In this document: one piece after another, positions 38,659 to 62,968 of the stretch | Numbering within the stretch: position 1 is the stretch's first letter | How the letters are laid out: the number at the start of each line of letters is the position of its first letter | From: Torymus aiolomorphi | Taxonomy: Eukaryota; Arthropoda; Insecta; Hymenoptera; Torymidae | Reading direction: 5' to 3' | Assembly: GCA_036365515.1 (NCBI GenBank) | Contig: CM070877.1 | Coordinates: 118,207,321 to 118,271,320 of the forward strand | DNA length: 64,000 bases | The notes under the pieces: generated by a model | What the model saw: the letters and a program-made list of their open reading frames with translations, nothing else | Told to the model about the DNA's origin: nothing | Database searches by the model: none | Program-made: the position numbers and the translations under genes

Positions 38659-39060
38659 TTAATTTTTAGACTTATTTTTCTTGCTGACAAATAGTGTCTT
38701 AAGTTCATTAGGCAGGGTATTGAAGGTTTTTAAAGCTACTAAGTAGCTATTCTTATTACTAATAGCCTTCTTTGTTTTAGGTAACTGAATACCCTTTTTT
38801 CTAATTTTAGATGTACTTGCTTTATATATTTCTGACAAATCTTCGTAGTGATAAAGTAGAGCCTCAAGCGTAAATAGTTGATTTACATTTAACGGGATAT
38901 TTGCTAGATATTTGTTTTTACTTATAAGTTTCAATATTCTTGTTTGTATTTTTTGTAAAAGAGTTAAATTGTTATTGTATGTTCCGCCCCAGGCAATTCC
39001 ATAATTTATTAAACTATGAAAGAAGGCGTAGTATATTGTCATTAGTGTTTTAGTATCCAT
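38659..39060 (-). pseudogene. Reverse transcriptase C-terminal (thumb) fragment
   Basis: Frame of 133 codons continuing the LINE protein, with the INYGIAWGG block that follows the RT palm in LINE ORF2 proteins. It is separated from the catalytic fragment by one frameshift near the 5-base run at 39079-39083. Confidence 0.7.
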
Positions 39061-39792
39061 GAACTTTTTGATTTTTGCAAAAATATATATTTTGTTTTAT
39101 TTATAATATATTCAATGTGCTTATCCCATTTCATGTTGTAATCAAATATCAACCATAGGTGTTTGTGGTTTGTTACTCTTTTGATTTTCTGTTTGTGTAT
39201 ATCTATATCGAGTTTTATTGGAACACTATCACTATAGTTACCCATAGTCATGTAAACAGTTTTATTTGTATTTAAGGATAGTTTGTTGATAGCTAACCAG
39301 TTTGCTATATGCTCTAAAGATTTGTTCATTTTTTCCCGAGCAGATGCCCACGTGTTGTCAGCAGCGATGACAACGGTGTCATCCGCATAGGACAGAATAG
39401 TGTCTCTTTGCATATCTAACAGTAGATCGTTAACATATAGTATAAAAAATAATGGTCCTAAAACCGTTCCTTGTGGCACTCCCGTGTCAATTTCATTTTC
39501 AATACTATTTTCGTCTGATATCCTAACTCTTTGTTTTCTATTAGTTAGATAGCTAGTTAGTAGTTCCAATGATTTGCCCCTTATCCTATGTCTTTCAAGT
39601 TTATCGATTAATAGCTTATGGTTAACAGTGTCAAAAGCCTTTGCAAGATCTATAAAAGTGACTATTAGTGGAAGGTTTTTTCTAATTTGTTATAAATGAT
39701 GTCCGAAATTCTGTTTAGTGAGTCTGTTGTTCCTCTACCTTTTACAAAACCTTATTTATTTCTTAGAATATATTTCTTAATATACTGTCGAT
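39042..39792 (-). pseudogene. Reverse transcriptase fragment, catalytic part
   Basis: The frame at 39042-39569 carries GVPQGTVLGPLFFILYVNDL and the catalytic YADD box (residues 61-64), hallmarks of a non-LTR reverse transcriptase. Upstream on the same strand DLAKAFDTVNHK (about 39615-39650) continues the palm domain in frame. Further upstream GFVKGRGTTDS is in another frame, the break falling at a 6-base homopolymer (39676-39681). Clade is probably CR1/L2/Kiri-like, judged by motif wording only. Confidence 0.8.
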
Positions 39793-45274: not shown

Positions 45275-45280
45275 AGCAGT
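45275..45280. repeat. Target-site duplication AGCAGT, left
   Basis: Identical to 62301-62306. Six-base duplications are the rule for Polintons. Confidence 0.9.
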
Positions 45281-45398
45281 AGTAGTAGGGGCAGCGCGGC
45301 TACCGCGCCAGAGCGGCTCCCGCGCCACTTACCCACCGAGCACTACTTACCGTCCGTCGGTAAGGTAGGGTGCAAAGTCACCATGCGAGAGGCCCGGT

Positions 45399-45910
45399 AG
45401 AGGGCGCATTGAACATTTACTCCATCGATAAAATGTGTACGTATGTCATGTTGCAGGGGGCATGGGGCCCTCATGTGATGTTATGTTGTAAGTGAATATA
45501 GAATATTTTTATAATATTCATATAGTGTTTAAATTTGTTAATTATAAGTAGTCTTATATTCCGCGCCAGCCCGGTTGTAGAGGGCGCATTGAACATTTAC
45601 TCCATCGATAAAATGCATACGTATGTCATGTTGCAGGGGGCATGGGGCCCTCATGTGATGTTATGTTGTAAGTGAATATAGAATATTTTTATAATATTCA
45701 TATAGTGTTTAAATTTGTTAATTATAAGTAGTCTTATATTCCGCGCCAGCCCGGTTGTAGAGGGCGCATTGAACATTTACTCCATCGATAAAATGCATAC
45801 GTATGTCATGTTGCCGGGGGCATGGGGCCCTCATATGATGTTATGTTGTAAGTGAATATAGAATATTTTTATAATATTCATATAGTGTTATTTGTTAATT
45901 ATAAGTAGTC
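45399..45910. repeat. 180-bp subterminal tandem repeat, about 3 copies
   Basis: AGGGCGCATTGAACATTTAC recurs at 45401, 45581 and 45761, a period of exactly 180 bases. The third unit lacks a few bases near its end. The right arm has only two units, so this is a copy-number difference between otherwise matching arms. Confidence 0.9.
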
Positions 45911-46440
45911 TTATATTTTATAAGTATATTTTATCTTAGTATATTCAATCAGTATATTTTATATTGTATAAGATTCTACAAAGATATTTTATAAGTTCAT
46001 AGAAATTTTAAAAAGTTAATGATGAGCAATTCAATGAAATTTATATTAACAATATTAAATGACTATTTTTAAATTCAAAAGAAACTTTAAAATATTTAAA
46101 CAAGTTAGTTTTTAAGGAAAATTTTCTATTATAAGAATAAATATTTCATAGAGGGCATTGGGATGTGGAAACGTTAAGGGAAAATAAAAAAGATATGTAA
46201 GATTATTTCATATTTATTAAAAAAGCTTTTTCATATTTATTTAAAAAAGCTTAAAAGTAATACATAGTAGAATACATCTTAATCTACGAGTATAAAAAGT
46301 TTCAAATTAATCTTTCAATCTTACTATAAAAATATATTTAGAAACTAGTGAACATCTTAATTAAAAAGTATTACAATTTAGCAAATAACTTTGAAAATTT
46401 AAAATTAAAGTTAAAGAGAAAATTATCTAAAAACTTATAA
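45911..46440. other. AT-rich subterminal DNA of left arm
   Basis: Between the 180-bp repeats and the 96-codon gene. AT-rich; matched in inverse by about 61304-61850. Probably 3' untranslated and terminator sequence for the outward-facing genes. Confidence 0.5.
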
Positions 46441-46731
46441 TTATATAAATTCTAGAAGGCATCCACCTAAAGATTTGACGAAGACTTCTCTATTAACTAA
46501 TTCTGACTCTATGTTGAGAAGCGCCTCTGGCTTCTCCAGTAATAAAGAATTAACTTTACTTGGAAGGAAAATGTCAAAACTACTGTCTAATTCAAGAACA
46601 ATTTTTAAGCCGTATTTAGTGGATACCTTTTTTAATGAGGTTATCTTATACTGTTTATTTAGCTCCAAGTCCCGTAGTCGTTTTGTGGGCAGGTATGATG
46701 GACTTCTCGCTGCTTCATTTATGAGGTCCAT
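46441..46731 (-). CDS. Small arm protein, 96 aa (possible OB-fold ssDNA-binding), left copy
   Basis: Intact 96-codon frame. It has the wording LNKQYKITSLKKVSTKYGLK followed by beta-strand-like LELDSSFDIFLP. I recall similar short proteins from insect mobile elements with a beta-barrel look, compatible with an OB fold binding single-stranded DNA; that role is inference. It lies downstream of the 176-aa gene on the same strand, 60 bases apart. Preservation of both frames without any stop, while the central genes are broken, suggests arm homogenisation or recent activity. Confidence 0.75.
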   Translation of the reverse strand: MDLINEAARSPSYLPTKRLRDLELNKQYKITSLKKVSTKYGLKIVLELDSSFDIFLPSKVNSLLLEKPEALLNIESELVNREVFVKSLGGCLLEFI

Positions 46732-46737
46732 GACTGA

Positions 46738-46791
46738 AAAAAGAAATGATAAATTATTATTTATATTTTTTTTATAGAATTACTTACTTAT
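46738..46791 (-). other. Likely 54-nt intercistronic intron, left copy
   Basis: Read on the minus strand, a GTAAGT donor follows the stop codon of the 176-aa gene and a CTTTTTTCAG acceptor stands two bases before the ATG of the 96-aa gene. The sequence mirrors 60957-61010 in the right arm. Removal would join the two frames on one short two-gene mRNA without fusing them. Confidence 0.5.
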
Positions 46792-47322
46792 TTATTCTGA
46801 CGTATCAGAACTTTCAGGGGTTGAATATTGCTCTCTCAAGTCTTCCACCCAGCGGTATAAAGCGCAAACTATTTCAACTGAACAATTCTGTTTCCACCCG
46901 GGACAATGATTAATGCAGGCTAGCGGTCGTATAAATCCAGGAGTTCTTATAGATGGACAACCCAAATCCTCCAAGTTTCTTATATTATCGAAATAGGGTT
47001 GCAGCCAGTGTTTTTTGTGTTCACCTTTGACCCAAATTGTTAATAACGACCCCTGCGCTTTTTCTTTCAATTTGTCGAAAGCCGTTGACAGGTATGAATA
47101 CGGCACCTCTCCGTGTTCCCAATGAATTCCGTGCAGATTGGATTGTAAATATCTATTTAAAATTTTTACATTCTGGTCTAAATCACTCCAATCACAGGGT
47201 GGTTGAAATGTCGCAACGTACGGCACCGGATTTAACGCATTAGGATCTATATAAGCAATTTCTTTAAATATAAAATTGCCGTTGTTATCTTTAAAACCTT
47301 GTGTATCTACAATTAGTTCCAT
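46792..47322 (-). CDS. Arm protein, 176 aa (possible RNase H-fold nuclease-like), left copy
   Basis: Intact frame starting MELIVDTQGF, a beta-strand ending in an acidic residue as at the start of RNase H/DEDD exonuclease folds, though the second acidic position is Gln. Later come a W-x-x-G-E turn (HWEHGEVPYSY), LLTIWVKGEHKKHW, and a C-terminal Cys/His group with HCPGWKQNCS. Similar uncharacterised proteins are common in insect genomes and mobile elements. Nuclease function is inference, and loss of a catalytic acid could make it a binding protein. It is transcribed outward from the minisatellite toward the terminus. Confidence 0.75.
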   Translation of the reverse strand: MELIVDTQGFKDNNGNFIFKEIAYIDPNALNPVPYVATFQPPCDWSDLDQNVKILNRYLQSNLHGIHWEHGEVPYSYLSTAFDKLKEKAQGSLLTIWVKGEHKKHWLQPYFDNIRNLEDLGCPSIRTPGFIRPLACINHCPGWKQNCSVEIVCALYRWVEDLREQYSTPESSDTSE

Positions 47323-47394
47323 GATAAGTTATATACTGGAAATGTAGATAACATTATTTGAATATTATTCAAGAAAAAAAAGTAGAGTTAATAT

Positions 47395-49843
47395 AATAGT
47401 GTTAAAAGTTAGAGTGAAAGATGTGATAATAACTTATTAATTCATAATACATGCAATGTAAAAATTAAAGTCCCTACGAAGAGATTGAAAAGTTAAAGTA
47501 CAATAGCTGAGAAAATCTTAGAAAAAAAAATATGAACTCATTATATGTGAAAAAGTTAAAGTAAGAGATGTGAAAATAAATTATAAATTCATGATACGTG
47601 CTATGTAAAAAATTAAAGTCCCTAAGAAGAGACTGAAAAGTTAAAGTTCAACAGCTGAGAATATCTTAGAAAAAAATATATGAATTCATTAAAGTAAGAA
47701 ATTTTAAAGTAACTTATAAATTCATGATACGTGCTGTGAAAAAATTAAAGTCCCTACAAAGAGACTGAAAAGTTAAAGTTTAATAGCTGAGAATGTCTTA
47801 GAAAAAATTAATAAATTATAAATTCATGATACGTGCTATGTAAAAAATTAAAGTCCCTAAGAAGAGACTGAAAAGTTAAAGTTCAACAGCTGAGAATATC
47901 TTAAAAAAAAATATGAATTCATTAAAGTAAGAAATTTTAAAGTAACTTATAAATTCATGATACGTGCTGTGAAAAAATTAAAGTCCCTACAAAGAGACTG
48001 AAAAGTTAAAGTTTAATAGCTGAGAATGTCTTAGAAAAAATTAATAATTTATAAATTCACGATACGTGCTATGCAAAAAATTAAAGTCCCTAAGAAGAGA
48101 CTGAAAAGTTAAAGTTCAACAGCTGAGAATATCTTAGAAAAAAATATGAATTCATTAAAGTAAGAAATTTTAAAGTAACTTATAAATTCATGATACGTGC
48201 TGTGAAAAAATTAAAGTCCCTACAAAGAGACTGAAAAGTTAAAGTTTAATAGCTGAGAATGTCTTAGAAAAAATTAATAATTTATAAATTCACGATACGT
48301 GCTATGCAAAAAATTAAAGTTCCTAAGAAGAGACTGAAAAGTTAAAGTTCAACAGCTGAGAATATCTTAGAAAAAAATATGAATTCATTAAAGTAAGAAA
48401 TTTTAAAGTAACTTATAAATTCATGATACGTGTTATGAAAAAAATTAAAGTCCCTACAGAGAGACTGAAAAGTTAAAGTTCAATAGCTGAGAATGTCTTA
48501 GAAAAATGAATAAATTATAAATTCATGATACGTGCTATGTAAAAAATTAAAGTCCCTAAGAAGAGACTGAAAAGTTAAAGTTCAACAGCTGAGAATATCT
48601 TAGAAAAAAATATGAATTCATTAAAGTAAGAAATTTTAAAGTAACTTATAAATTCATGATACGTGCTGTGAAAAAATTAAAGTCCCTACAAAGAGACTGA
48701 AAAGTTAAAGTTTAATAGCTGAGAATGTCTTAGAAAAAATTAATAATTTATAAATTCACGATACGTGCTATGCAAAAAATTAAAGTCCCTAAGAAGAGAC
48801 TGAAAAGTTAAAGTTCAACAGCTGAGAATATCTTAGAAAAAAATATGAATTCATTAAAGTAAGAAATTTTAAAGTAACTTATAAATTCATGATACGTGCT
48901 GTGAAAAAATTAAAGTCCCTACAAAGAGACTGAAAAGTTAAAGTTTAATAGCTGAGAATGTCTTAGAAAAAATTAATAATTTATAAATTCACGATACGTG
49001 CTATGCAAAAAATTAAAGTTCCTAAGAAGAGACTGAAAAGTTAAAGTTCAACAGGTGAGAATATCTTAGAAAAAAATATGAATTCATTAAAGTAAGAAAT
49101 TTTAAAGTAACTTATAAATTCATGATACGTGTTATGAAAAAAATTAAAGTCCCTACAGAGAGACTGAAAAGTTAAAGTTCAATAGCTGAGAATGTCTTAG
49201 AAAAATGAATAACTTATAAATTCGTGATACGTGCTATGTAAAAAATTAAAGTCCCTACGAGGAGACGGAAAAGTTAAAGTACAACAGCTGAGAATATCTC
49301 AGAAAAAATATGAATTCATTAAAGAAAGTGATTTTAAAGTAACTTATAAATTCATGATACGTGCTGTGAAAAAATTAAAGTCCCTACAAAGAGACTGAAA
49401 AGTTAAAGTTTAATAGCTGAGAATGTCTTAGAAAAAATTAATAATTTATAAATTCACGATACGTGCTATGCAAAAAATTAAAGTCCCTAAGAAGAGACTG
49501 AAAAGTTAAAGTTCAACAGCTGAGAATATCTTAGAAAAAAATATGAATTCATTAAAGTAAGAAATTTTAAAGTAACTTATAAATTCATGATACGTGTTAT
49601 GAAAAAAATTAAAGTCCCTACAAAGAGACTGAAAAGTTAAAGTTCAACAGCTGAGAATATCTTAGAAAAAAATATGAATTCATTAAAGTAAGAAATTTTA
49701 AAGTAACTTATAAATTCATGATACGTGTTATGAAAAAAATTAAAGTCCCTACAGAGAGACTGAAAAGTTAAAGTTCAATAGCTGAGAATGTCTTAGAAAA
49801 ATGAATAACTTATAAATTCGTGATACGTGCTATGTAAAAAATT
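47395..49843. repeat. Minisatellite array of left arm, alternating 130/103-bp units
   Basis: About 20 monomers. Long units (about 130 bp) contain GAATTCATTAAAGTAAGAAA and short units (about 103 bp) lack it; they alternate, giving a higher-order dimer of about 233 bp. Both carry TTAAAGTCCCTA, GACTGAAAAGTTAAAGTT and CAGCTGAGAAT. Unit starts such as 48081, 48211 and 48314 give the spacing. The array stands 5' of the outward-reading arm genes and ends abruptly in the integrase gene. Confidence 0.9.
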
Positions 49844-50476
49844 AGAATTTTATAATAAAGAATTTGAAAGTTTAATGCTAAAATATAATATAAATCTATA
49901 TTCATCCTATAGCAAACTCAAAGCCTCAATTTGTGAACGTTTTAATCGTACATTAAAAAACAAAATGTGGAAAAACTTTAGTTTACAAGGCAGTTATAAA
50001 TGGATAGATATTTTGCAAGACCTAACTTTACAGTATAATAATACTAAGCACCGAACGATTGGTATGAAGCCCGCAGATGTTAATTCTACAACAGTTAATA
50101 AAGTTTATAATCGTTTATGCATTCATCAGAAAACCTCTAAACGTCCTTGTAGGCGTGCAAAATTTAAACTTGGTGATAAAGTTCGAATAAGTAAAAATAA
50201 AACTGTTTTCGAGAAAGGATATACACCAAACTGGTCTACAGAAATTTTTACAATAAATAAAGTATTACCTACATCACCATTTACATATCATTTGAAAGAT
50301 TATCAAGATAAACCAATCGCTGGCGGATTCTATGAAGAAGAACTTATGAAGACTAAATATCCTGTTATTTACTTAGTAGAAAAAATTATAAAAAACATGG
50401 CGATAAAATTTATGTAAAATGGTTAGGTTTTGATAAGTCTCATAATAGTTGGATAAAAAAAGTGATTTATGAATAA
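49844..50476 (+). pseudogene. Retroviral-type (Polinton) integrase, N-terminally truncated, frame-broken
   Basis: The frame 49827-50417 has only array-derived codons before EFYNKEF, the segment that normally follows the second catalytic Asp. KASICERFNRT holds the Glu of the D,D35E triad. It continues as YNNTKHRTIGMKPADV, then an SH3-like region (KFKLGDKVRISK). After a break at the six-A run 50390-50395, a chromodomain-like tail (KWLGFDKSHNSW) is read in another frame to a stop at 50474-50476. The zinc-binding N terminus and the first two catalytic acids are gone, replaced by the minisatellite, so no active integrase can be made here. It faces the polymerase gene. Confidence 0.85.
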
Positions 50477-50519
50477 ATAAAATTGTAAATAAGATGAACT
50501 AATTGTTTTTATTTAATAC

Positions 50520-50714
50520 CTATTTCCTTACATTTTTTACAAGAATTGGATGCAAAATTTCATTAACTTTATCAATTCTTCTCCTAAAACGTTCTCTGTC
50601 ACGAGCAATTTGTTCCCATTCTCCACACCGAGCCTTATGATATGCAAACCTCCACGCATGCATTACATGAACAGTTAGCTTTTCATCAAAATGTACATTC
50701 TTTTTAACACGCAT
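50520..50714 (-). CDS. PPP1R15/GADD34-like PP1-targeting protein, 64 aa
   Basis: Intact 64-codon frame. Residues 5-9 (KNVHF) match the PP1-docking RVxF consensus. Residues 12-24 keep the spacing of the family to Trp21, and 31-43 (GEWEQIARDRERF) match the conserved block that engages eIF2alpha/actin, followed by RRI at 45-47. Members of this family (cellular GADD34/CReP; counterparts in herpes simplex and African swine fever viruses) recruit PP1 to dephosphorylate eIF2alpha and lift translational arrest. The protein is little more than the minimal core. A TTTTAG acceptor at 50722-50728 just upstream means it may be a last exon rather than a free-standing gene. The neighbour upstream on the same strand is the polymerase. 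Confidence 0.8.
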   Translation of the reverse strand: MRVKKNVHFDEKLTVHVMHAWRFAYHKARCGEWEQIARDRERFRRRIDKVNEILHPILVKNVRK

Positions 50715-50721
50715 TGGACAC

Positions 50722-50809
50722 CTAAAATAATAAATTTCTATATTACATATGTAGAATATTTACTATAAATTAATATATAAATTACTATTATACAAAAAAA
50801 TATACTCAC
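50722..50809 (-). other. Candidate 88-nt intron between polymerase end and PPP1R15-like frame
   Basis: The donor GTGAGTATA overlaps the polymerase stop codon (AAG TGA GTA). The acceptor is a TTATTATTTTAG just before the exon at 50721. Splicing would skip the stop and join the frames in phase (two bases plus one). Whether it is used needs RNA. Confidence 0.45.
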
Positions 50810-51317
50810 TTATTATTTATTTTATAATGACCCCATGCTAAAGTATCTATATTATTGTCTTGAACATATCTTTTATCATCATATGGACTTAAGGCAATCT
50901 TTAACTGCTTTATAGTTTCTACATTATGGAGTCGGGATCTTATGGAATACTGTTGTCGTTTTTTAATAGATAAATTTTGCAAACAATCTACAAAATCATC
51001 AAACTTTATAGTTTTTTAACAACTGAAACCTTAATACCTTTTATTTTTTCATATGATGTTCACCATAAACGCGACTACTGTACATTTTACTTCTTAAGCC
51101 AACGAATTCTGTAAGAATCTGACCATTACACTCATCTTTCATAAGACCAACAATTTTTTTATTTGCATGAGGCATATTAAAGATGTTTTCACTGGGATAG
51201 TCTGAAGTATCAAACTTTGAGAGATTTTTTTCATATCAGCATAAAAATCATCACATTCAACAGCATAAATCAAGCTGTCTGTGTCTGTATAAAGAAGCTT
51301 ACAATTTTCTTTATACA
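50806..51317 (-). pseudogene. Polymerase C-terminal part in three further frames
   Basis: Motif C (YTDTDS, 51274-51291) directly follows the first break. Subsequent recognisable blocks are [27 protein letters not shown], a short basic stretch and [11 protein letters not shown], ending in TLAWGHY at about 50825-50845. Frames change at 51225-51231, 51044-51049 and 51012-51017. The final codon is followed by TGA that overlaps a GTGAGT donor. Confidence 0.8.
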
Positions 51318-54300
51318 TTTTTTCATATAACTATAATGAAAATCATAAATCAGAGTTTTAGAAATGTCTAAAACTGAAAGTCCAACGTAAATTGGTTTAT
51401 CTAACAAAACTTCAACTTTTTTAAGCTGGATAGCTACTAAATTTTCATCAAAAATACTAATACTATGAAAAAGGGGACTTGATATTTGTGCTTCTACGCC
51501 ATACCTTCCAGCCCATTTAGTTGATAGCTTGACATCAACACGTTTTCTTACATTCTCCATAGTTTTACCATATACAGCATTATTCATCAATTTGAAAAAG
51601 TTTTTTTCAAAATCAGTTCTTGCTAACGCCCTCATATTACTATTTAAATTGATGTAAGACTTAAGCCATGGAGATTGTTTAAATTTCAATACTTTATGAA
51701 TTTTAACAAGCTGAAGTCCATTTTTGACAGCTTGTTTAAGTGATCGATAGTGTATAACATAATTTTTTTTATACGAAAGTGTAGCCAAAAGTTTTTCCTG
51801 TTTTGATCCCGGTGGTTTTGCTTGCTCAGGACAAAAAGGTAAGTCGTTATGAATGTCATGTATTTCTGAAGGATATTCTAAATCTACTTCTAAAATGTAC
51901 CCGTAAGGTGCATCATCATCTATGAAAAAATCTAAATTTTCACAGTCGTCTATCCACTCAAAGGAATCATAAGGGAGACATTGAGTCATTGCCCAACCAT
52001 ATAAATTATTAGCATCTAAATATATTAGATATGTATTTTCTTTATTTTTATCATAATTTTCAGTCATATATTTATGATTTGCAGCTGCGTAGCGATGAGA
52101 GCACTGACTTAATCCACCTCTTATACCTCTTTCTATGAATAAAATCATATCTATATCAGTTAATAATTTTAATTGTATGCCAGTATACTTTAGCATTGCA
52201 TCCCATGCAAATCCTGGAGTAGTATAATAATGAGCTGGATCTAAACCATATACGTTTATACTTTGATCACGAAAATTTTCAAAAACATCAGCTAATAATA
52301 AAACATCTGTCTTCATATAATAAAGATCTGAATATTCTCCAAGGGTATGAATACTAAAGGTATTCCATACTTTTTGTGCATGTTCATAATCTTCATCAGA
52401 TATGGTTGAACCATTTAGCACACTGAAAAATTTTGTTTTTTCAGGTAACTCAGTTTCATCCAACTTTTCCCACGAATCCAGGTACTCGTAAGGCAGAACG
52501 CCTTTCTTCGTTAAAAGACTGATTTTTTCTTTTTCTAAAGATGAAAACTCCTTTGAAACAATTTTATATTCACTTAAATATGAAGCTAATTTTTCTAAAG
52601 AAGATGGCATAAATCTAAATGAATCTACAAAGCGAAATTTAATATCACTTTTCTCAACATGTTTTGTAAAAGAAATATACTTCTCCTTAGTCAATGGAAG
52701 TAAATCAACATCACCTTTCATATAATTCGATATATCATTAATTATAAAGTGAGCATCATAACCACTTAAGTTATGAAATATCACAGGAATCGTTCTTGAA
52801 TCTTGATAATTCAAATTACAGTTAGCATGAGCAGGACCGCGATATTTTCCTGAGAGATGACAATGATCTCTTACCTTATCACTGTTTTCTAATAATTTGT
52901 TACAAATGTGACAAATTTTTGAATTGAAATAATTAATCATTTCTATCGGTGTTAAAATTGGCATAGATCGTGGGTTTGTATATAAATTAGTAATACGGTC
53001 ATGTATTACCTTCAATTCACTAGCAAACCACATAGCTGGTTTAACCCCACGATAAAATCTATATTCAGATAAAGAGTCATCAAAACTGCACTTCAAATAA
53101 TATCCTATACTAAACATTTCATGTTTTTGAAACGATAAAGTATTAGCCAAACCTTCATCTTCCTGGTTTTCTAGTACAGGCTTTAACAGACATTCACAAT
53201 CTGCATATATTGTGAATGGTAATCTTTCTTTATAATTAAAATTTTTAAAATAGATGATATCTTTACCTTTTATAGGAAGTTTCACCTTGCAATCATTAAT
53301 ATTCTTACATATTCTTTCATGCTCTTTTAAATTATTTTCATTAAAGAAAAAATTTAAACATCTATCACATATATATCGCTTCTTTTTTCTATGTGATAAA
53401 CTTCCTCCTACTAGACGTGATAAATTTTTTATATATATGTAATGTGATTTCAGCTGTCCCTTAATTGTTTTTTCTAATAAAAGAAGATTTACATGATTTT
53501 CTTTTTTTTCATGTGTCAAATAAAAGGGAATCACATTTTTCTCATGCAATCCGAAGACATTAACCGATATTAAAGGGTTTTGTTTTTCAAACTTGAAAAT
53601 TTTTTTTATCGTAACAGGGAATTCTATACCTGTCATATTTAAATTATTTTCATACTGAAGATAATTGCTAACCCTGTTAGGATGATTTTTACGGTTTACT
53701 GGATACAAAGCAGATAATATTGCCCATTTAAAGCATTGATTATCTTTGTTTTGAATATTAATGCAGGCATTTTTTTATCTAAAAATGGTGGTAAAGGTAA
53801 ATATGAATTACCACTGCGCAATGGATTGAACTTATTCATATTAATTTGAATATTAATAATAGAATTTAAAGTCCATCCAGAATCTTTTTCTTGAAATTCT
53901 TCTACCTCAGCCAAAAGTTTATTTAAAACATGATTATCAAACCATTCACTTAAAGATGTACCTAAAACCACTTCAGCGTTTGGCGTATTGAAATGTTTCG
54001 TTTCAATACTTTCCTGTGAATCATCATTTACATCAGAAGAAAGTTTCTTGAATGAACAAGATAGTACAGTGTTAATTTTCATGGCACATCGAATATCTTT
54101 CAAAATTTTCTTCACTTGTTGGCAGAACAATACTGAGGCGTCCTTTAAAAAGGTTGATATATCTATATGTACAAGATTTGCAATTATACTAGTTCTCACC
54201 CTTTTATTAAAAGCACTTTCAATATCAATCCAACGAACTCGATGCTCGATTTCATCCGTTTTTAAATCTGGTACTATTCCATAACCAGTTTTTCCTATAG

Positions 54301-54535
54301 CATCAAGCTTTGCTTTGATACTCTCAATCCTTGCTATGGCGTATAAAATAGATTGTTTTTGAGCTGTTGTCAGCGTTCTTTTTCTCAATAATTCCCGAAG
54401 ACTATCTAATGATAAAACACATTGTTCTACCCATTGTTCAATAACTTCGGAATCCATAGATTTATATATTAAAATATTTTCCACCTCTTCAAAAATTTTC
54501 ACATGTTCCTGACAAAGATCTTTAACTTCATCCAT
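50806..54535 (-). CDS. Polinton protein-primed family B DNA polymerase (whole gene, frame broken at five A-runs)
   Basis: One gene of about 1,240 codons read on the minus strand from 54535. Order: a 260-residue helical N-terminal region, zinc-binding modules, the 3'-5' exonuclease motifs, palm motifs A and B, motif C, and a C-terminal region ending in TLAWGHY. Each break falls on an A-run (plus-strand T-runs 53770-53776, 51318-51323, 51225-51231, 51044-51049, 51012-51017). In every case one missing base would explain it. Either the gene is recently dead or the assembly under-counts homopolymers. The family copies linear DNA from a terminal protein; the arms would be its templates. Confidence 0.85.
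51270..53708 (-). CDS. Polymerase core: exonuclease and palm (open segment, 812 codons)
   Basis: A C2H2-like finger is at residues 114-134. Exo I has Asp170/Glu172 (YADCE). A C-x2-C-x15-H-type module with a [15 protein letters not shown] tail (266-301) resembles endonuclease VII zinc folds found in such polymerases. Exo II is at 311-322 (NLSGYDAHF) and Exo III around Asp468-Asp474. Motif A is [13 protein letters not shown] (562-574) and motif [12 protein letters not shown] (706-716). All exonuclease and motif A/B residues expected of a protein-primed family B enzyme are present. Frame is lost at 51318-51323 just before motif C. Confidence 0.95.
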   Translation of the reverse strand: MYPVNRKNHPNRVSNYLQYENNLNMTGIEFPVTIKKIFKFEKQNPLISVNVFGLHEKNVIPFYLTHEKKENHVNLLLLEKTIKGQLKSHYIYIKNLSRLVGGSLSHRKKKRYICDRCLNFFFNENNLKEHERICKNINDCKVKLPIKGKDIIYFKNFNYKERLPFTIYADCECLLKPVLENQEDEGLANTLSFQKHEMFSIGYYLKCSFDDSLSEYRFYRGVKPAMWFASELKVIHDRITNLYTNPRSMPILTPIEMINYFNSKICHICNKLLENSDKVRDHCHLSGKYRGPAHANCNLNYQDSRTIPVIFHNLSGYDAHFIINDISNYMKGDVDLLPLTKEKYISFTKHVEKSDIKFRFVDSFRFMPSSLEKLASYLSEYKIVSKEFSSLEKEKISLLTKKGVLPYEYLDSWEKLDETELPEKTKFFSVLNGSTISDEDYEHAQKVWNTFSIHTLGEYSDLYYMKTDVLLLADVFENFRDQSINVYGLDPAHYYTTPGFAWDAMLKYTGIQLKLLTDIDMILFIERGIRGGLSQCSHRYAAANHKYMTENYDKNKENTYLIYLDANNLYGWAMTQCLPYDSFEWIDDCENLDFFIDDDAPYGYILEVDLEYPSEIHDIHNDLPFCPEQAKPPGSKQEKLLATLSYKKNYVIHYRSLKQAVKNGLQLVKIHKVLKFKQSPWLKSYINLNSNMRALARTDFEKNFFKLMNNAVYGKTMENVRKRVDVKLSTKWAGRYGVEAQISSPLFHSISIFDENLVAIQLKKVEVLLDKPIYVGLSVLDISKTLIYDFHYSYMKKCIKKIVSFFIQTQTA
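53696..54535 (-). CDS. Polymerase N-terminal region (open segment, 279 codons)
   Basis: Starts [11 protein letters not shown] at the only sensible ATG after an AT-rich leader. Mostly helical, with [20 protein letters not shown], then a conserved-looking [16 protein letters not shown] and [20 protein letters not shown]. The last is the usual sequence leading into the polymerase N terminus in insect Polintons, so this is part of the polymerase and not a separate gene. After the seven-A run at 53770-53776 the last codons are out of frame. It may contain or position the protein primer; no such function can be shown from sequence. Confidence 0.75.
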   Translation of the reverse strand: MDEVKDLCQEHVKIFEEVENILIYKSMDSEVIEQWVEQCVLSLDSLRELLRKRTLTTAQKQSILYAIARIESIKAKLDAIGKTGYGIVPDLKTDEIEHRVRWIDIESAFNKRVRTSIIANLVHIDISTFLKDASVLFCQQVKKILKDIRCAMKINTVLSCSFKKLSSDVNDDSQESIETKHFNTPNAEVVLGTSLSEWFDNHVLNKLLAEVEEFQEKDSGWTLNSIINIQINMNKFNPLRSGNSYLPLPPFLDKKMPALIFKTKIINALNGQYYLLCIQ

Positions 54536-55199
54536 TTTTTCAAATTAAAAAAAGACTTTTTTTCGTAAGTGTATTCTGAAAATTAAAAAATTATGTTATC
54601 ATTTTAAATAATTATTGATAAAAAAAAAAAAAGGGGAAGAGAAATTAAAATAATCAATGATTTTGTATAATATTAGATCAGCATTTGATAATATAGAAAC
54701 AGTTTAGTTGTATTAGGCAGTTATAATTAGATAGTATTTTATAAGATTTAACTTACATTATAATAAAATTAAAGATTAAATGATTGGTATAAAGCCTTAT
54801 GCAATACTTTTAAAATCTTAGCAGACGACGTGGCAGTGGGCCACAAGGGAGGGACGCGTGAGTGAGAGGTATATACTGAGAGTGTAGAGTGGGAGGGGAG
54901 GGGGATACTATCTACTCGAAGAGTTCATATATGCCCCGTAGGGTATAAGAAATGATGCGTGGTAATTATTTTATTAAATATATTTTATTAAATATATTGA
55001 GAGAAGAGGCGTAATTGAATGCCTGAAACGTTGACAAGGTAGATCATTGAAATCATACAAAATTAATTAATAGTTTTAATACAATAATGATTATGCCAAA
55101 TATAGTGTAAATATTATAAAAATTATTTATATACTATTAATAGTGAAATACTATAAAAAAATTATACATAAAATACTATATAAACTTAATTAAACTTAA
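54536..55199. other. Intergenic DNA between polymerase and proline-rich gene
   Basis: AT-rich except for a GC-rich patch at 54825-54920 (GTGGCAGTGGGCCACAAGG and G-runs). This patch is about 300 bases upstream of the polymerase start and may hold its promoter. No gene recognised. Confidence 0.4.
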
Positions 55200-55205
55200 C
55201 TAACT

Positions 55206-55345
55206 CGCGAATTTCATTTTTTAATGTTCGCTTATCCGTTTTTCTCTTTTTTTTAAGGAGAATTTCATTTTTTAATGTTTGCTTATCCGTTTTTCTCTTT
55301 TTTTTTTAGGGAGAATTTCATTTTTTAATGTTTGCCTATCCGTTT
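55206..55345. repeat. Triplicated 3' end of the proline-rich gene
   Basis: GAATTTCATTTTTTAATGTT with CTTATCCGTTTTTCTC recurs three times at about 55-bp spacing. The most upstream gene copy (about 55310-55345) and the next one encode the C terminus and stop of the proline-rich protein. The remainder are non-coding duplicates beyond the stop. Confidence 0.8.
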
Positions 55346-56398
55346 TAGGTTCTTCTATATTTAATATTTTTTTCATTTCTGCACGAACTTTATAGTCTAT
55401 GGTAGGATTATGCGCAGGATTCGGAATTGTTATTAGTTTCGCGGGCGGTGGAGAATTCAATAAATTTAAATCGAATGATTGTGGACTGTATGGCTCTAAC
55501 GGTGGCGTTGACCAGCTACCAAATTCAAACGTAAACGATTCTGGCGTATAGCTCTCCCTTAGCGGAGAAGGTGGTAAAGGCATTTCTTCTATGATATTGA
55601 ATGACTCCGAGGGTTGATCTATTGGTGAAATTACTTCGGGTAGAGGTCTAACTATTGGAAGAAGTTTTTTAAATATATTGGATGTTTTTTCTTGCTCCTG
55701 GTTTTGGACTAGAAAAACATTTTCACTACTTTCCACATGGTTTTGTGATGAATTGAGCTGAAAATAAAAAATATATATTTATAATAAAATATATAGCATA
55801 TGTATCATAAAAAATACTATATTGCTTACCACTTCATTTCTGCGTATACTATACACTACAGGTGATTGCGGTGATTCTTCCTACAAATAAGCATACTTTT
55901 TTAATATAATTTAATTAGAAAAATTATGCATTACTTTATAAAAAGATAAAATATTACATTATAATAAAACACTGTTATGGTATCTATCAAATCATAAAAT
56001 TTTTTCAAATACGATAAAATCTATGACTATAATTTTTAGGTAGTTTTGAAAAAATAAATAAAAAAATTATAAATTTACGTTAAAATGATAGAGAAAATTG
56101 CAATATTTTCATAAAAGCTACAATTTCGCAATTCGCTAAAATAATAATAATTTATTTTGAAACTAATAATAGTTTTTAAACTTACCTGATAGTCCTCACA
56201 CTCATTCAAAACTTCATAACATAGCGTTGGTAGATTTCTTACAATTCTCGGGTCCTTTCTATGATCTTCTGCAAATGGACATATTTCAGGAAGATCTATA
56301 GTTTTTTCCTTTAACTTTTCCCACTCACATTTATGTTGTACACTATTTACAATGATTCTTCTGATTTCCGTCACATAGATCTCTGTACTTTTATACAT
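55272..56398 (-). CDS. Three-exon gene, about 249 aa, proline/serine-rich with basic tail, function unknown
   Basis: Exon 1 is 56398-56186 (71 codons from MYKSTEIYV), exon 2 55880-55830 (17 codons), exon 3 55757-55272 (161 codons plus stop). Boundaries are clean: CAG|GTAAGT, TTTGTAG|GAAG, GTG|GTAAGC, TTTTCAG|CTC, all in phase 0. The protein has a Cys-containing N-terminal region (CPFAEDHRKDPR), a long Pro/Ser/Glu middle (MPLPPSPLRES) and a Lys/Arg C terminus (PKKKREKR) like a nuclear signal. I recognise no domain; a transcription-regulator or terminal-protein role are only possibilities. The frame opens further upstream, to 56503, but an ATTCAG acceptor-like site near 56458 favours the ATG at 56398. 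Confidence 0.6.
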
Positions 56399-56503
56399 TT
56401 TTAACTTTAAAAATTTTCCAAATCGGACGAAGTTGCTTGCGTGAACACTTCCTAAAGACTGAATCTTGTATATTATACGTAGCGAGAAAAGCAACGCTTT
56501 CAA

Positions 56504-57490
56504 TATATAATGCCCTTTATAGAAAAAATTTGGATTTTGGAAAGATTTTCAATGGAGCACTTGGGGTCCTTTGTTTTATGAACGCTTCGAGAGTGACGCG
56601 CGGGTGGACGATATCGTTCACACATGTGCTGGCTCGCTAAACTGCCTTTCCGAAATTTTCTTGAATTTTACTTCTAAACTAATTCTTTATCGGTTGCTTC
56701 GCGAACTAACAATATTAATGATATTTTATTTAATCAATTGTTATTTGAATGAAGCCCTTTCATTTAGTCGAAAAGTATTACATATTTTTGGCTCATTTTT
56801 ATTTTACAGAATAGTTTTACTTTATTGTTATGTAGAAATATATAATAATACATAATAGAATGTACTGTTTCATTTATAATTATCAAAGTTAATTATAGTT
56901 TGCTAAGTTCTAGTATTATACATTTGAATACAAAATTTTAAATAAAATAAACACTTAATTGAAAAGGAATATTTGTGAAATATTGAAAAAATTTAAGTGG
57001 AAAAAGAATAATGAACTTGAGAAAAAAAAGGTTTAAATTAATTTATATTAACTTACCAATTCGTTTTGAACTTAACTAGTGAAAAGATAGACTTCTGCAG
57101 CAACTATCGGTATATTAGATGAAAATCTTTCAAGCTATTTTCAGACGGTAACGAAAAAATACTCTCAAAGCTCAGTAGCACTTGTCAACTTGAAATAATG
57201 AGATGTATCTAAAAAATGTTCAAGTATTATAAACTAATAGCAAAGCATTAAAAAAAAAAAAATTTAATTTTATAGAACTATAAATGATAAAGTATTAGAG
57301 AATTGAAAATTATATATGTTAATACGTTGAAAAGACGAAGTTATTATAATCGAAAACTTTAAGTTACATTAATATAATGAAGAGAAAAACTGAATCATTA
57401 TAAGTTAAACTATAGATCAATAAGCTGTAAGGATTGTATATTAATAAGCTGAAAATCAAAAGTAATTATATGAAATACTTACGTTTGGTA
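56504..57490. other. Upstream region of the three-exon gene with unused-looking donors
   Basis: On the minus strand two strong donors, CCAAAC|GTAAGT at about 57480 and GAATTG|GTAAGT at about 57055, have no coding frame before them. They may end 5' untranslated exons of the three-exon gene. A GC-rich patch at 56580-56640 may be an alternative promoter. The 94-codon plus-strand frame here is AT-rich chance. Confidence 0.35.
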
Positions 57491-58075
57491 AGGAGACTAA
57501 GCCTCATGGGACTGACGCGCAGCCTTTTATCCACTGTCGGTATATAGGTGCGCATGCGCGACAGTTTAAAGATTGATAGATGGCAGTGCACCTGCACGGT
57601 ATAGTTATTCATTTTAGATTAAAGAAGAAAGATCTATAGATGATCGTATGCACATGCGTGGTAACGTAAAAGATTCATAGATGAGTGAGGAAAGATTGGT
57701 AGGTGACGAACTGCGCATGACCGAGAAACTTTTAAGTTTGGGCTGATAAAAAGTATTTACAAACATTTCCTTACTATAAAGGTTAGGCGAGCTGGGTCCT
57801 AGCCACTCGTTTCTTTTTCTTATTTCAGCTCTAATACTTTTAATATAGCATTCTTACAGGTCTTTAATAATTTCTTCTTTCAGGACTTATAATTTAAAAG
57901 TTTTAAAGTCTTGAATCTTAATACAACACTTTTCTTACAGTTATAAAAAGTAAATTCATTTGTCGAATTAATTCTAAGTTATTTTCACGTCTCATACTTA
58001 AACTTTTTCACACTATTCATATTATAAGTCCCTTAGGCATCTTATACTTACTATTTTAAACTTTCAGATACTTTA
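57491..58075. other. Promoter-like and array-edge DNA
   Basis: 57500-57730 is GC-richer, with GCGCATGCGC words and AGATTGATAGATG-like repeats, and may be the promoter of the minus-strand genes. From 57880 the sequence grades into diverged minisatellite units. Confidence 0.35.
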
Positions 58076-58079
58076 ACTT

Positions 58080-60330
58080 TTTACGTATAATGAATTCATA
58101 TTTTTTCTAAGATATTCTCAGCTGTTGAACTTTAACTTTTCAGTCTCTTCGTAGGGACTTTAATTTTTTACATAGCACGTATAACGAATTTAAAAGTTAT
58201 TCCTTTTTCTAAGATATTCTCAGCTATTGAACTTTAACTTATCAGTCTCTCTGTAGGGACTTTAATTTTTTTCACAGCACGTATCATGAATTTATAAGTT
58301 ATTTTCAAATCACTTTCTTTAATGAATTCATATTTTTTCTGAGATATTCTCAGCTGTTGTACTTTAACTTTTCAGTCTCCTCGTAGGGACTTTAATTTTT
58401 TACATAGCACGTATCACGAATTTATAAGTTATTCATTTTTCTAAGACATTCTCAGCTATTAAACTTTAACTTTTTAGTCTCTCTGTAGGGACTTTAATTT
58501 TTTCATAACACGTATCATGAATTTATAAGTTACTTTAAAATTTCTTACTTTAATGAATTCATATTTTTTCTAAGATATTCTCAGCTGTTGAACTTTAACT
58601 TTTCAGTCTCTTCTTAGGGACTTTAATTTTTTACATAGCACGTATCGTGAATTTATAAATTATTAATTTTTCTAAGACATTCTCAGCTATTAAACTTTAA
58701 CTTTTCAGTCTCTTTGTAGGGACTTTAATTTTTTTCATAACACGTATCATGAATTTATAAGTTACTTTAAAATTTCTTACTTTAATGAATTCATATTTTT
58801 TCTAAGATATTCTCAGCTGTTGAACTTTAACTTTTCAGTCTCTTCTTAGGAACTTTAATTTTTTGCATAGCACGTATCGTGAATTTATAAATTATTAATT
58901 TTTTCTAAGACATTCTCAGCTATTAAACTTTAACTTTTCAGTCTCTTTGTAGGGACTTTAATTTTTTCACAGCACGTATCATGAATTTATAAGTTACTTT
59001 AAAATTTCTTACTTTAATGAATTCATATTTTTTCTAAGATATTCTCAGCTGTTGAACTTTAACTTTTCAGTCTCTTCTTAGGGACTTTAATTTTTTGCAT
59101 AGCACGTATCGTGAATTTATAAATTATTAATTTTTTCTAAGACATTCTCAGCTATTAAACTTTAACTTTTCAGTCTCTTTGTAGGGACTTTAATTTTTTT
59201 CACAGCACGTATCATGAATTTATAAGTTATTTTCAAATCACTTTCTTTAATGAATTCATATTTTTTCTGAGATATTCTCAGCTGTTGTACTTTAACTTTT
59301 CAGTCTCCTCGTAGGGACTTTAATTTTTTACATAGCACGTATCACGAATTTATAAGTTATTCATTTTTCTAAGACATTCTCAGCTATTGAACTTTAACTT
59401 TTCAGTCTCTCTGTAGGGACTTTAATTTTTTTCATAACACGTATCATGAATTTATAAGTTACTTTAAAATTTCTTACTTTAATGAATTCATATTTTTTCT
59501 AAGATATTCTCAGCTGTTGAACTTTAACTTTTCAGTCTCTTCTTAGGAACTTTAATTTTTTGCATAGCACGTATCGTGAATTTATAAATTATTAATTTTT
59601 TCTAAGACATTCTCAGCTATTAAACTTTAACTTTTCAGTCTCTTTGTAGGGACTTTAATTTTTTCACAGCACGTATCATGAATTTATAAGTTACTTTAAA
59701 ATTTCTTACTTTAATGAATTCATATTTTTTCTAAGATATTCTCAGCTGTTGAACTTTAACTTTTCAGTCTCTTCTTAGGGACTTTAATTTTTTGCATAGC
59801 ACGTATCGTGAATTTATAAATTATTAATTTTTTCTAAGACATTCTCAGCTATTAAACTTTAACTTTTCAGTCTCTTTGTAGGGACTTTAATTTTTTCACA
59901 GCACGTATCATGAATTTATAAGTTACTTTAAAATTTCTTACTTTAATGAATTCATATTTTTTTCTAAGATATTCTCAGCTGTTGAACTTTAACTTTTCAG
60001 TCTCTTCTTAGGGACTTTAATTTTTTACATAGCACGTATCATGAATTTATAATTTATTTTCACATCTCTTACTTTAACTTTTTCACATATAATGAGTTCA
60101 TATTTTTTTTTCTAAGATTTTCTCAGCTTAATTTTTTACATAGCACGTATCATGAATTTATAATTTATTTTCACATCTCTTACTTTAACTTTTTCACATA
60201 TAATGAGTTCATATTTTTTTTTCTAAGATTTTCTCAGCTATTGTACTTTAACTTTTCAATCTCTCCGTAGGGACTTTAATTTTTTACATTGCATGTATTA
60301 TGAATTAATAAGTTATTATCACATCTTTCA
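58080..60330. repeat. Minisatellite array of right arm
   Basis: Inverse of the left array: units with AACTTTAACTTTTCAGTCTC, AGGGACTTTAATTTTT and GAATTTATAAGTTA, again in long/short alternation. The unit order is similar but not identical to the left, and the two edge units nearest the genes carry a local duplication (60040-60230). Confidence 0.9.
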
Positions 60331-60421
60331 CTCTAACTTTTAACACTATTATATTAACTCTACTTTTTTTCTTGAATAATATTCAAATAATGTTATCTAC
60401 ATTTCCAGTATATAACTTATC

Positions 60422-60952
60422 ATGGAACTAATTGTAGATACACAAGGTTTTAAAGATAACAACGGCAATTTTATATTTAAAGAAATTGCTTATATAGATC
60501 CTAATGCGTTAAATCCGGTGCCGTACGTTGCGACATTTCAACCACCCTGTGATTGGAGTGATTTAGACCAGAATGTAAAAATTTTAAATAGATATTTACA
60601 ATCCAATCTGCACGGAATTCATTGGGAACACGGAGAGGTGCCGTATTCATACCTGTCAACGGCTTTCGACAAATTGAAAGAAAAAGCGCAGGGGTCGTTA
60701 TTAACAATTTGGGTCAAAGGTGAACACAAAAAACACTGGCTGCAACCCTATTTCGATAATATAAGAAACTTGGAGGATTTGGGTTGTCCATCTATAAGAA
60801 CTCCTGGATTTATACGACCGCTAGCCTGCATTAATCATTGTCCCGGGTGGAAACAGAATTGTTCAGTTGAAATAGTTTGCGCTTTATACCGCTGGGTGGA
60901 AGACTTGAGAGAGCAATATTCAACCCCTGAAAGTTCTGATACGTCAGAATAA
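60422..60952 (+). CDS. Arm protein, 176 aa (possible RNase H-fold nuclease-like), right copy
   Basis: Residue-for-residue identical to the minus-strand copy at 46792-47322. Upstream, TACATTTCCAG at about 60400-60410 resembles a splice acceptor, so transcription may begin within the minisatellite. Function as for the left copy: uncertain, nuclease-like at best. Confidence 0.75.
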   Translation: MELIVDTQGFKDNNGNFIFKEIAYIDPNALNPVPYVATFQPPCDWSDLDQNVKILNRYLQSNLHGIHWEHGEVPYSYLSTAFDKLKEKAQGSLLTIWVKGEHKKHWLQPYFDNIRNLEDLGCPSIRTPGFIRPLACINHCPGWKQNCSVEIVCALYRWVEDLREQYSTPESSDTSE

Positions 60953-60956
60953 ATAA

Positions 60957-61010
60957 GTAAGTAATTCTATAAAAAAAATATAAATAATAATTTATCATTT
61001 CTTTTTTCAG
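60957..61010 (+). other. Likely 54-nt intercistronic intron, right copy
   Basis: GTAAGTAATT five bases after the stop of the 176-aa gene; CTTTTTTCAG two bases before the ATG of the next gene. The interval is AT-rich, as insect introns are. Confidence 0.5.
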
Positions 61011-61012
61011 TC

Positions 61013-61303
61013 ATGGACCTCATAAATGAAGCAGCGAGAAGTCCATCATACCTGCCCACAAAACGACTACGGGACTTGGAGCTAAATAAACAGTATAAGA
61101 TAACCTCATTAAAAAAGGTATCCACTAAATACGGCTTAAAAATTGTTCTTGAATTAGACAGTAGTTTTGACATTTTCCTTCCAAGTAAAGTTAATTCTTT
61201 ATTACTGGAGAAGCCAGAGGCGCTTCTCAACATAGAGTCAGAATTAGTTAATAGAGAAGTCTTCGTCAAATCTTTAGGTGGATGCCTTCTAGAATTTATA
61301 TAA
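61013..61303 (+). CDS. Small arm protein, 96 aa (possible OB-fold ssDNA-binding), right copy
   Basis: Identical in translation to 46441-46731. Starts MDLINEAARSPSYLPTKRLR; ends shortly before AT-rich DNA leading to the 180-bp repeats. Confidence 0.75.
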   Translation: MDLINEAARSPSYLPTKRLRDLELNKQYKITSLKKVSTKYGLKIVLELDSSFDIFLPSKVNSLLLEKPEALLNIESELVNREVFVKSLGGCLLEFI

Positions 61304-61850
61304 TTATAAGTTTTTAGATAATTTTCTCTTTAACTTTAATTTTAAATTTTCAAAGTTATTTGCTAAATTGTAATACTTTTTAATTAAGATGTTCACTAGT
61401 TTCTAAATATATTTTTATAGTAAGATTGAAAGATTAATTTGAAACTTTTTATACTCGTAGATTAAGATGTATTCTACTATGTATTACTTTTAAGCTTTTT
61501 TAAATAAATATGAAAAAACTTTTTTAATAAATATGAAATAATCTTACATATCTTTTTTATTTTCCCTTAACGTTTCCACATCCCAATGTCCTCTATGAAA
61601 TATTTATTCTTATAATAGAAAATTTTCCTTAAAAACTAACTTGTTTAAATATTTTAAAGTTTCTTTTGAATTTAAAAATAGTCATTTAATATTGTTAATA
61701 TAAATTTCATTGAATTGCTCATCATTAACTTTTTAAAATTTCTATGAACTTATAAAATATCTTTGTAGAATCTTATACAATATAAAATATACTGATTGAA
61801 TATACTAAGATAAAATATACTTATAAAATATAAGACTACTTATAATTAAC
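61304..61850. other. AT-rich subterminal DNA of right arm
   Basis: Inverse counterpart of 45911-46440; no further gene. Confidence 0.5.
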
Positions 61851-61854
61851 AAAT

Positions 61855-62166
61855 AACACTATATGAATATTATAAAAATATTCTATATTCACTTACAACA
61901 TAACATCACATGAGGGCCCCATGTCCCCTGCAACATGACATACGTATGCATTTTATCGATGGAGTAAATGTTCAATGCGCCCTCTACAACCGGGCTGGCG
62001 CGGAATATAAGACTACTTATAATTAACAAATTTAAACACTATATGAATATTATAAAAATATTCTATATTCACTTACAACATAACATCACATGAGGGCCCC
62101 ATGCCCCCTGCAACATGACATACGTACACATTTTATCGATGGAGTAAATGTTCAATGCGCCCTCTA
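61855..62166. repeat. 180-bp subterminal tandem repeat, 2 copies
   Basis: TTCAATGCGCCCTCTAC occurs at 61971 and 62151, exactly 180 bases apart. One unit fewer than in the left arm. Confidence 0.9.
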
Positions 62167-62300
62167 CCGGGCCTCTCGCATGGTGACTTTGCACCCTACC
62201 TTACCGACGGACGGTAAGTAGTGCTCGGTGGGTAAGTGGCGCGGGAGCCGCTCTGGCGCGGTAGCCGCGCTGGCGCGGTAGCCGCGCTGCCCCTACTACT

Positions 62301-62306
62301 AGCAGT
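62301..62306. repeat. Target-site duplication AGCAGT, right
   Basis: Matches 45275-45280 exactly. Confidence 0.9.
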
Positions 62307-62968
62307 ACGATTTCTTTTAGCTGCGTCTTTTTGTTTGATCAATTTCTCTCCATTAATTTCAATCTTTCGTTTTTCTCCTTTTATCAATACGTTATAAAAT
62401 TTCTCAATTTTATCAACGGAGCTACCAGGCTTACCAATGATAAAATCTTCAAATTTGTTCAAAATTTCCATAGTTGCGTTCTGATGTGCCATTAATATTT
62501 GATCCAAAATTTCATAATACTGTTTTCGATGCAGATCTTCTGGCTTTACAAAAACGTGAAGAGGTCGAATTATCGTCCAGTCGCTTAGGAATCCTCCCTG
62601 TTCTCGGTATAACTGGTTCACCTATGTTTAAGTTCTTATTTTCAGTACATCTCGTCCAGACTGATTGAAATTTTAATTTTCGCATTTCTTTCAAGTTTTC
62701 AGTAACGATGTGAACTTTACTATGCGATTCATTGACGCACAAATCTGATTTGTGCAGCATTCATAATTTCAATTTGTTGAAAGACTTCAATTATTGCTGA
62801 CAAAAGAAAAATTAATTGAAAAGAGTTCATATTTTGTAAAAATTCAACCGCTTTCACTGAATGACTTGAATCTGATTCACGATTTGTATTTAGCATTGTA
62901 AAGAATGCAATCGCAGTTTTATAATTGTCAATAATATATAATGACTTCAGCGACTTGATTTGCATCAC
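62307..62968 (-). pseudogene. hAT-like (ZMYM1/DUF4371-type) transposase relic, C-terminal half
   Basis: Minus-strand frames 62968-62729, 62760-62512 and 62621-62307 read successively as one protein. AVEFLQNMNSFQLIFLLSAI with VFQQIEIMNAA is the typical helical segment of hAT-type transposases, followed by YYEILDQILMAHQ. Shifts between frames show decay. The last frame runs through AAKRNRTA into the Polinton terminus, so the element split it; the continuation is on the left flank near 45250. Confidence 0.65.

Follow-up and report, generated by a model that had tools for sequence, protein, structure and literature searches.

The window analysed here, a 64,000-nucleotide stretch of the Torymus aiolomorphi genome, contains a Polinton element of 17,020 bp (45281..62300, no strand assigned). 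It is a copy of a family that we refer to as F1 and is bounded by long terminal inverted repeats (TIRs) and by a 6-bp target duplication, AGCAGT, at 45275-45280 and 62301-62306. The left TIR region (45281..49801, plus strand) holds a tandem array of ~233-bp units at about 47402-49801, and the right one (58069..62300, minus strand) has a matching array (58069-60058); the alignment of the window element to other F1 copies often ends at an array. Of two other F1 copies in which both ends were seen, one is flanked by the 6-bp duplication CCCATC and the other by GTTGAT. A Polinton had been named as the carrier in the sequence-only reading, and this agrees well with the long TIRs, with the 6-bp duplication in all three F1 copies with both ends seen and with the capsid gene of a relative from the F3 family, which is described below.

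Inside the element, a PPP1R15-like frame of 64 amino acids lies on the minus strand (50520..50714), with its ATG at 50714-50712 and its stop ending at 50520, and combines the PP1-docking motif KNVHF with the block GEWEQIARDRERF. The 64-codon frame that had been claimed is real, and the minus strand can be added to its description. On the same strand, a frame of 834 amino acids from stop to stop (51270..53774) has motifs resembling those of DNA polymerase B, from which it is labelled polymerase-like. The C-terminal part of this polymerase-like gene is distributed over three frames in the window copy (50806..51330, minus), and the sequence suggests a possible 88-bp intron (GTGAGT...TTTTAG; 50722..50809, minus). 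A frame of 279 amino acids upstream of the polymerase (53696..54535, minus) is, by eye, like a 257-amino-acid frame upstream of the F3 polymerase. A truncated frame at 49824..50417 (plus), which is presumably integrase-like, had weak library support: no Pfam match and a weak match to IS481 (E=0.049). The right TIR encodes frames of 176 (60422..60952, plus) and 96 amino acids (61013..61303, plus), which have identical copies in the left TIR at 46792-47322 (minus) and 46441-46731 (minus), respectively.

No library profile matched the polymerase-like or integrase-like frames of F1 and F3 under those labels. In the polymerase-like frame, profiles matched only a zinc-finger-like and an endonuclease VII-like stretch, the latter with 22.7 bits in Pfam (cut-off 23.6) and E=3.4e-4 in PHROGs, and a fold prediction of the F3 polymerase piece from two sequences had a pLDDT of 36.5, which made it unusable. 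The polymerase-like frame of the window was 61% identical to the F3 piece over the part that was compared. In 13 of the 37 F1 sequences that were examined, a single open frame contains three markers of the polymerase tail. The window copy itself looks defective, with its polymerase tail over several frames and its integrase-like frame truncated, and because none of the eight window frames that were scanned matched a capsid gene, it also looks non-autonomous. A frame of 98 amino acids (62196-62492, minus) spans the right end of the element at 62300, and insertion of the element into a coding stretch is therefore possible. Elsewhere in the window, we take the frames at 38659-39689 (minus), from their motifs, to be the reverse-transcriptase-like frames of a non-LTR element.

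Copy number and intactness of the F1 family

The genome from which the window comes (1.08 Gb, 21 contigs) was searched with the frames of F1 and of two further families, F3 and F2, and the best 150 of 612, 633 and 588 candidates, respectively, were taken, a selection that favours intact copies. All of the best 150 F1 candidates of the 612 matched the frame. Of these, 64, the window copy included, had exactly the protein sequence of the window frame and the remainder were 97-100% identical to it, many of the non-identical matches covering residues 1-62 only. An in-frame stop was present in four of these 150 matches and absent from 146. Loci L001-L030 are the top 30 of the 150 F1 rows, and L031-L042 come from seven further rows that were picked by hand. 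When 35 F1 frames were read to their stop, 30 ended like the window frame and five ended differently. Over kilobases, the F1 copies were mostly 98-99.7% identical to the window element, and F1 is therefore a family that was amplified recently; it also seems to be non-autonomous. Such a recent burst has left the copies too alike for selection within F1 to be shown from F1 itself. One copy (L031/L033, C2:8750281-8770280) has ~5 kb unmatched to the window element between the polymerase and the part that follows it.

Homology and key residues of the frame

A phmmer search of the PDB with the window frame returned the human PPP1R15A core at E=4.7e-11 (7nzm) and E=1.3e-7 (4xpn), the African swine fever virus (ASFV) protein DP71L (9nb9) at E=2.1e-5 and PPP1R15B (4v0x) at E=0.02. 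With a profile that was built from four F1, F3 and F2 sequences, these values improved to 1.9e-15 for PPP1R15A, 5.4e-10 for DP71L and 6.5e-7 for PPP1R15B. The Pfam family PF10488 scored 19.3 bits (E=9.5e-4) on the window frame, below its curated cut-off of 26.1; the PDB matches are significant, while for the window copy the curated Pfam threshold was not reached. A weak match to NIPSNAP was seen for two of the four members of the alignment (best E=0.0017). No relative was found in IMG/VR when it was scanned with the window frame, the alignment of F1, F2 and F3 and the polymerase frame.

The docking valine stands 22 residues ahead of the arginine of the R-x-G-x-W block in the window frame, exactly as in the human protein, and this upholds the earlier statement that KNVHF and GEWEQIARDRERF have kept the spacing of the family. 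A manual count gave the same distance in F3 and a distance of 19 in F2. Excerpts of PMC5429092 describe human PPP1R15A with the mutation V556E, W582A or F592A as defective in the dephosphorylation of eIF2alpha-P; V556 and F592 act via the stability of the complex, the effects of R578 and W582 are subtler, and W582 is needed for the selectivity for eIF2alpha and not for the kinetics of PP1 or actin binding. The window frame has an RVxF-type docking motif together with the counterparts of R578, W582 and F592. The counterparts of V556, R578, W582 and F592 were all kept in 34 of 35 F1 frames, 9 of 9 F2 frames and 7 of 8 F3 loci, counts that exclude broken frames such as the F2 loci L045, L059 and L060 and the F1 rows with stops and in which the valine is retained by construction, since the search patterns fixed the docking motif. 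The exceptions were one F1 frame with L in place of W582 and the F3 locus L058 with C in place of R578. By these matches, the window frame is a homologue of the core with which PPP1R15 binds PP1, and it has kept the residues that are important there.

A further stretch of GADD34, the C-terminal W616-R620, is required for its association with actin according to passages of PMC10743859. Its counterpart is missing here, as in our own alignment F1 ends before it and F3 has no W at that place, and for this reason we classified the frames as a short viral-type PPP1R15 core instead of a full PPP1R15. The C-terminal portion of PPP1R15 by itself is sufficient to deregulate the dephosphorylation of eIF2alpha-P in vivo, as stated in a part of PMC5429092.

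Related families in the same genome

The PF10488 profile found at least 34 matches in the same genome among the best 150 of 349 candidates. Of these, 14 exceeded the cut-off, one in F3 (L053) and the other 13 in F2. Twenty rows were read as DNA (L043-L052, the top 10 of the 34, and L053-L062, ten more that were picked by hand), and all of them belonged to F2 (12) or F3 (8).

The F2 frame has 94 amino acids, the docking motif KHVWF and the block SRKGMWEQLARDRERFQRRI. It is located ~1.1 kb past a polymerase tail on the same strand, and this tail, which was present in 8 of the 10 loci that were initially fetched, is 52-53% identical to that of F1. A frame that adjoins the F2 PPP1R15-like gene resembles, by eye, the 96-amino-acid TIR frame of F1. 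The polymerase tail, together with frames that were compared by eye, is the reason why F2 was filed as a putative Polinton. It was found at no fewer than 13 loci among the best 150 of 588 candidates, and one of its 11 full-length frames has a stop.

The F3 frame has 68 amino acids and starts with MSSKRVHFD. All of the best 150 F3 candidates of the 633 matched it with an identity of 85-100%, and 17 of them contained a stop. It had been considered that the frame might be absent or disrupted in all related elements, and this is not so: 146 of the 150 best F1 candidates, 133 of the 150 best F3 candidates and 10 of the 11 full-length F2 frames are free of stops. At the F3 locus L061 (C3:83985000-84004200), the only one at which the wider surroundings were read, in stretches that are adjacent by coordinates and were not joined, the frame lies amid a polymerase-like gene and capsid-, PLA2- and core-like matches. 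The double-jelly-roll capsid domain PF21738 was matched at E=1.1e-41 in the adjoining stretch L064, and next to L061 there were also a domain like phospholipase A2 (1.8e-12), a match like an adenovirus core protein that stayed under the cut-off, and weak protease matches. The ATG of the F3 frame follows the stop of the preceding gene after one base at seven of eight loci and overlaps it at the eighth (L055), and the start of the next gene was recognised at five of the eight. Such packing would be expected where viral genes form a compact cluster, not of a random insert.

Some F3 frames are part of longer open frames of 391, 314 (with a stop), 246, 178 and 174 amino acids, which are sited at C3:142043917-142044120, C1:109194348, C3:161851643, C2:225411403 (L053) and C3:56692232. 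In L053, we take the part upstream of the F3 frame to resemble the end of a Harbinger-type transposase. It is possible that these long frames are chimeric genes with a PP1-docking domain.

Purifying selection within F3 and possible origins of the gene

The flanks of the other F3 loci were 79-95% alike to those of L061 in long aligned pieces, and we therefore treated the F3 frames as orthologues within the element. Seven of the eight F3 loci entered the dN/dS analysis; L058, the frame of which lies outside the search pattern, was left out. In 18 of the 21 pairs dN was lower than dS, and the three pairs in which it was higher were close ones (L054-L055, L054-L062 and L055-L062). The most diverged pair, L056-L061, had a dN of 0.060 and a dS of 0.884, with 18 synonymous and seven nonsynonymous changes, of which 22% would have been expected to be synonymous (binomial, p=1.5e-7). 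Of six pairs to which the binomial was applied among the 21, five had p<0.003 and L057-L061 had p=0.075, in a model with no transition bias and for pairs that share history. The F3 loci L054 and L056 contain a stop, and so some of their divergence comes from decay, which acts in the direction opposite to the selection result. Diverged F3 copies have thus evolved under purifying selection. Between F1 and F3, dN was 0.35 and dS about 1.6, which is saturated; for F1 and F2, dS was not computable. The conservation between F1 and F3 could partly predate separate captures, having arisen in a host gene, but the result within F3 is unaffected by this.

Identities in the PPP1R15-like frame and in the polymerase tail were 0.60 and 0.56 for F1 and F3, 0.39 and 0.53 for F1 and F2, and 0.44 and 0.48 for F2 and F3. 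To the human 15A core, the identity was 0.50 for F1, 0.44 for F3 and 0.43 for F2. The divergence of the frame relative to the polymerase tail in F1 and F3 would be compatible with common descent; the F2 frame, on the other hand, resembles the human sequence at least as much as it does F1, and the gene is at different places in F1, F2 and F3. The gene may have been captured once and moved afterwards, or it may have been captured at least twice. Capture itself could have been simple, as the conserved C-terminus of PPP1R15 is a separate exon and the viral PPP1R15 proteins are conserved over just these 70 residues, as reported in the sections of PMC4394352 that concern these genes. The host PPP1R15 gene was not among the 20 PF10488 rows that were read from the best 150 of 349 candidates; an intron may interrupt it, or it may be among the lower-ranked candidates.

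Discussion

In this study, we attempted to establish what a short frame in an insect Polinton encodes. The reading that we favour, and that we consider probable from the comparison of sequences, is a minimal stand-alone PPP1R15 of the viral type that would recruit PP1 to eIF2alpha on behalf of the Polintons. The K-x-V-x-F motif and the conserved R would bind the catalytic subunit of PP1, the WEQxARDRxRF block would, with G-actin, place PP1 on phosphorylated eIF2alpha, and translation would be kept going during the replication and packaging of the element, as DP71L does for ASFV. Expression, PP1 binding, the effect on eIF2alpha and the benefit to the element are what we infer from this likeness. 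Polintons, like some large viruses, may disarm the shut-off of host translation.

One of the closest known systems is DP71L, which, like the window frame, is stand-alone and short and has K-x-V-x-F and a G-x-WEQ...DRxRFxRRI block. The excerpts of PMC10807198 give the short form 70-72 amino acids and the docking motif KHVRF, and parts of PMC10807198 and PMC5346070 describe it as dependent on an LSAVL stretch. Near the end of DP71L, this LSAVL corresponds to an LHPIL, also LxxxL-like, at the aligned place in F1. DP71L, however, is the gene of an exogenous virus and its activity was demonstrated experimentally, whereas the F1, F2 and F3 frames belong to integrated Polintons and their activity is predicted. 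The cellular proteins PPP1R15A/B (GADD34/CReP) and the PPP1R15 of Drosophila share with them the C-terminal core of ~70 residues and the counterparts of V556, R578, W582 and F592, but the Polinton frames are devoid of the long N-terminal part, and F1 and F3 are devoid of W616-R620. The PPP1R15 genes of insect viruses (coGV-gp036, PMC4394352; baculoviruses, PMC5704228) have the same domain and are carried by large exogenous viruses. Those of baculoviruses are thought to be host-derived in the portion of PMC5704228 that deals with them, which mentions a baculovirus PPP1R15A separately from Polintons. The elements themselves share 6-bp duplications, long TIRs and a polymerase-like gene with Polintons/Mavericks and adintovirus-like elements, and the surroundings of the F3 locus L061 also share the double-jelly-roll capsid and the PLA2-like and core-protein-like matches with them.

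A different function of the same domain is the alternative that fares best, even though we consider it unlikely: the protein would dock on PP1 without acting on eIF2alpha and would either sequester PP1 or redirect it to proteins of the element or to a step in its replication. The absence of the C-terminal actin-associated stretch from F1 and F3 is what one would expect of such a protein, as is the shorter spacer of 19 residues, not 22, between the docking V and the R578 counterpart in F2. This, however, does not account for the conservation between the families of the W582 counterpart and of most of the WEQxARDRxRF block, and the short DP71L acts on eIF2alpha at about equal length.

It is rather improbable that an exon of the host PPP1R15 was caught by chance and has been multiplied by the element as a functionless passenger. 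In a young burst of near-identical F1 copies, intactness alone proves little; the separate host exon for the conserved C-terminus that is described in part of PMC4394352 would make capture easy, and the window copy has a split polymerase tail and no capsid match in the eight frames that were scanned. The gene is nevertheless carried by three diverged families, it is placed compactly at all eight F3 loci, and the purifying selection within F3 largely refutes a passenger there.

To about the same low degree we credit a fusion in F1, in which the domain would be the last exon of the polymerase, reached by splicing of the 88-bp intron, so that the polymerase itself would carry PP1. The donor GTGAGT and the acceptor TTTTAG join both frames in phase and were present in 37 of 37 F1 sequences, a set chosen by a pattern on each side; phase agreement nonetheless has a chance of one in three, and the F1 copies are too young for the conservation of donor and acceptor to mean much. 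In F3, moreover, the polymerase is closed by a stop of its own, and on the opposite strand the PPP1R15-like gene has a separate start. A chance similarity of a short frame, to which the PF10488 score of the window copy below the cut-off might point, can be dismissed, given PDB E-values of 4.7e-11 and 1.9e-15 and the same residues in the related frames of three families.

We therefore return to the minimal viral-type PPP1R15 and its meaning for the elements that carry it. Polintons are usually treated as transposons, and the PPP1R15 homologues known outside cells are those of a few DNA viruses. Since such viral homologues were already known, what is new is the class of element, with the gene in three diverged families. 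The sequence-only reading knew of no described Polinton cargo of this kind, and a literature search that covered the main texts of openly available papers found no report of a PPP1R15-type cargo in Polintons or Mavericks. By term counts, GADD34, PP1 and phosphatase were absent from the main text of a virus survey (PMC11071296).

A PPP1R15-type gene under purifying selection constitutes independent evidence that Polintons encounter a cellular stress or antiviral response that acts on translation. It also implies that there is a phase of high protein production in the life of the Polinton. Whether insect Polintons still act as viruses can now be tested with one small protein in eIF2alpha assays. 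A single genome, moreover, has at least 300 copies (at least 150 of F1 and at least 150 of F3) of a potential brake on the stress response. Put tentatively, as a view that we hold with somewhat less than even confidence, the Polintons of this lineage act like endogenous viruses that fight the response of the eIF2alpha kinases with a PPP1R15-type accessory gene that is recurrent, selected and gained or relocated more than once within the group, and the several hundred PP1-docking frames that the genome has today may lower the stress threshold of the host.
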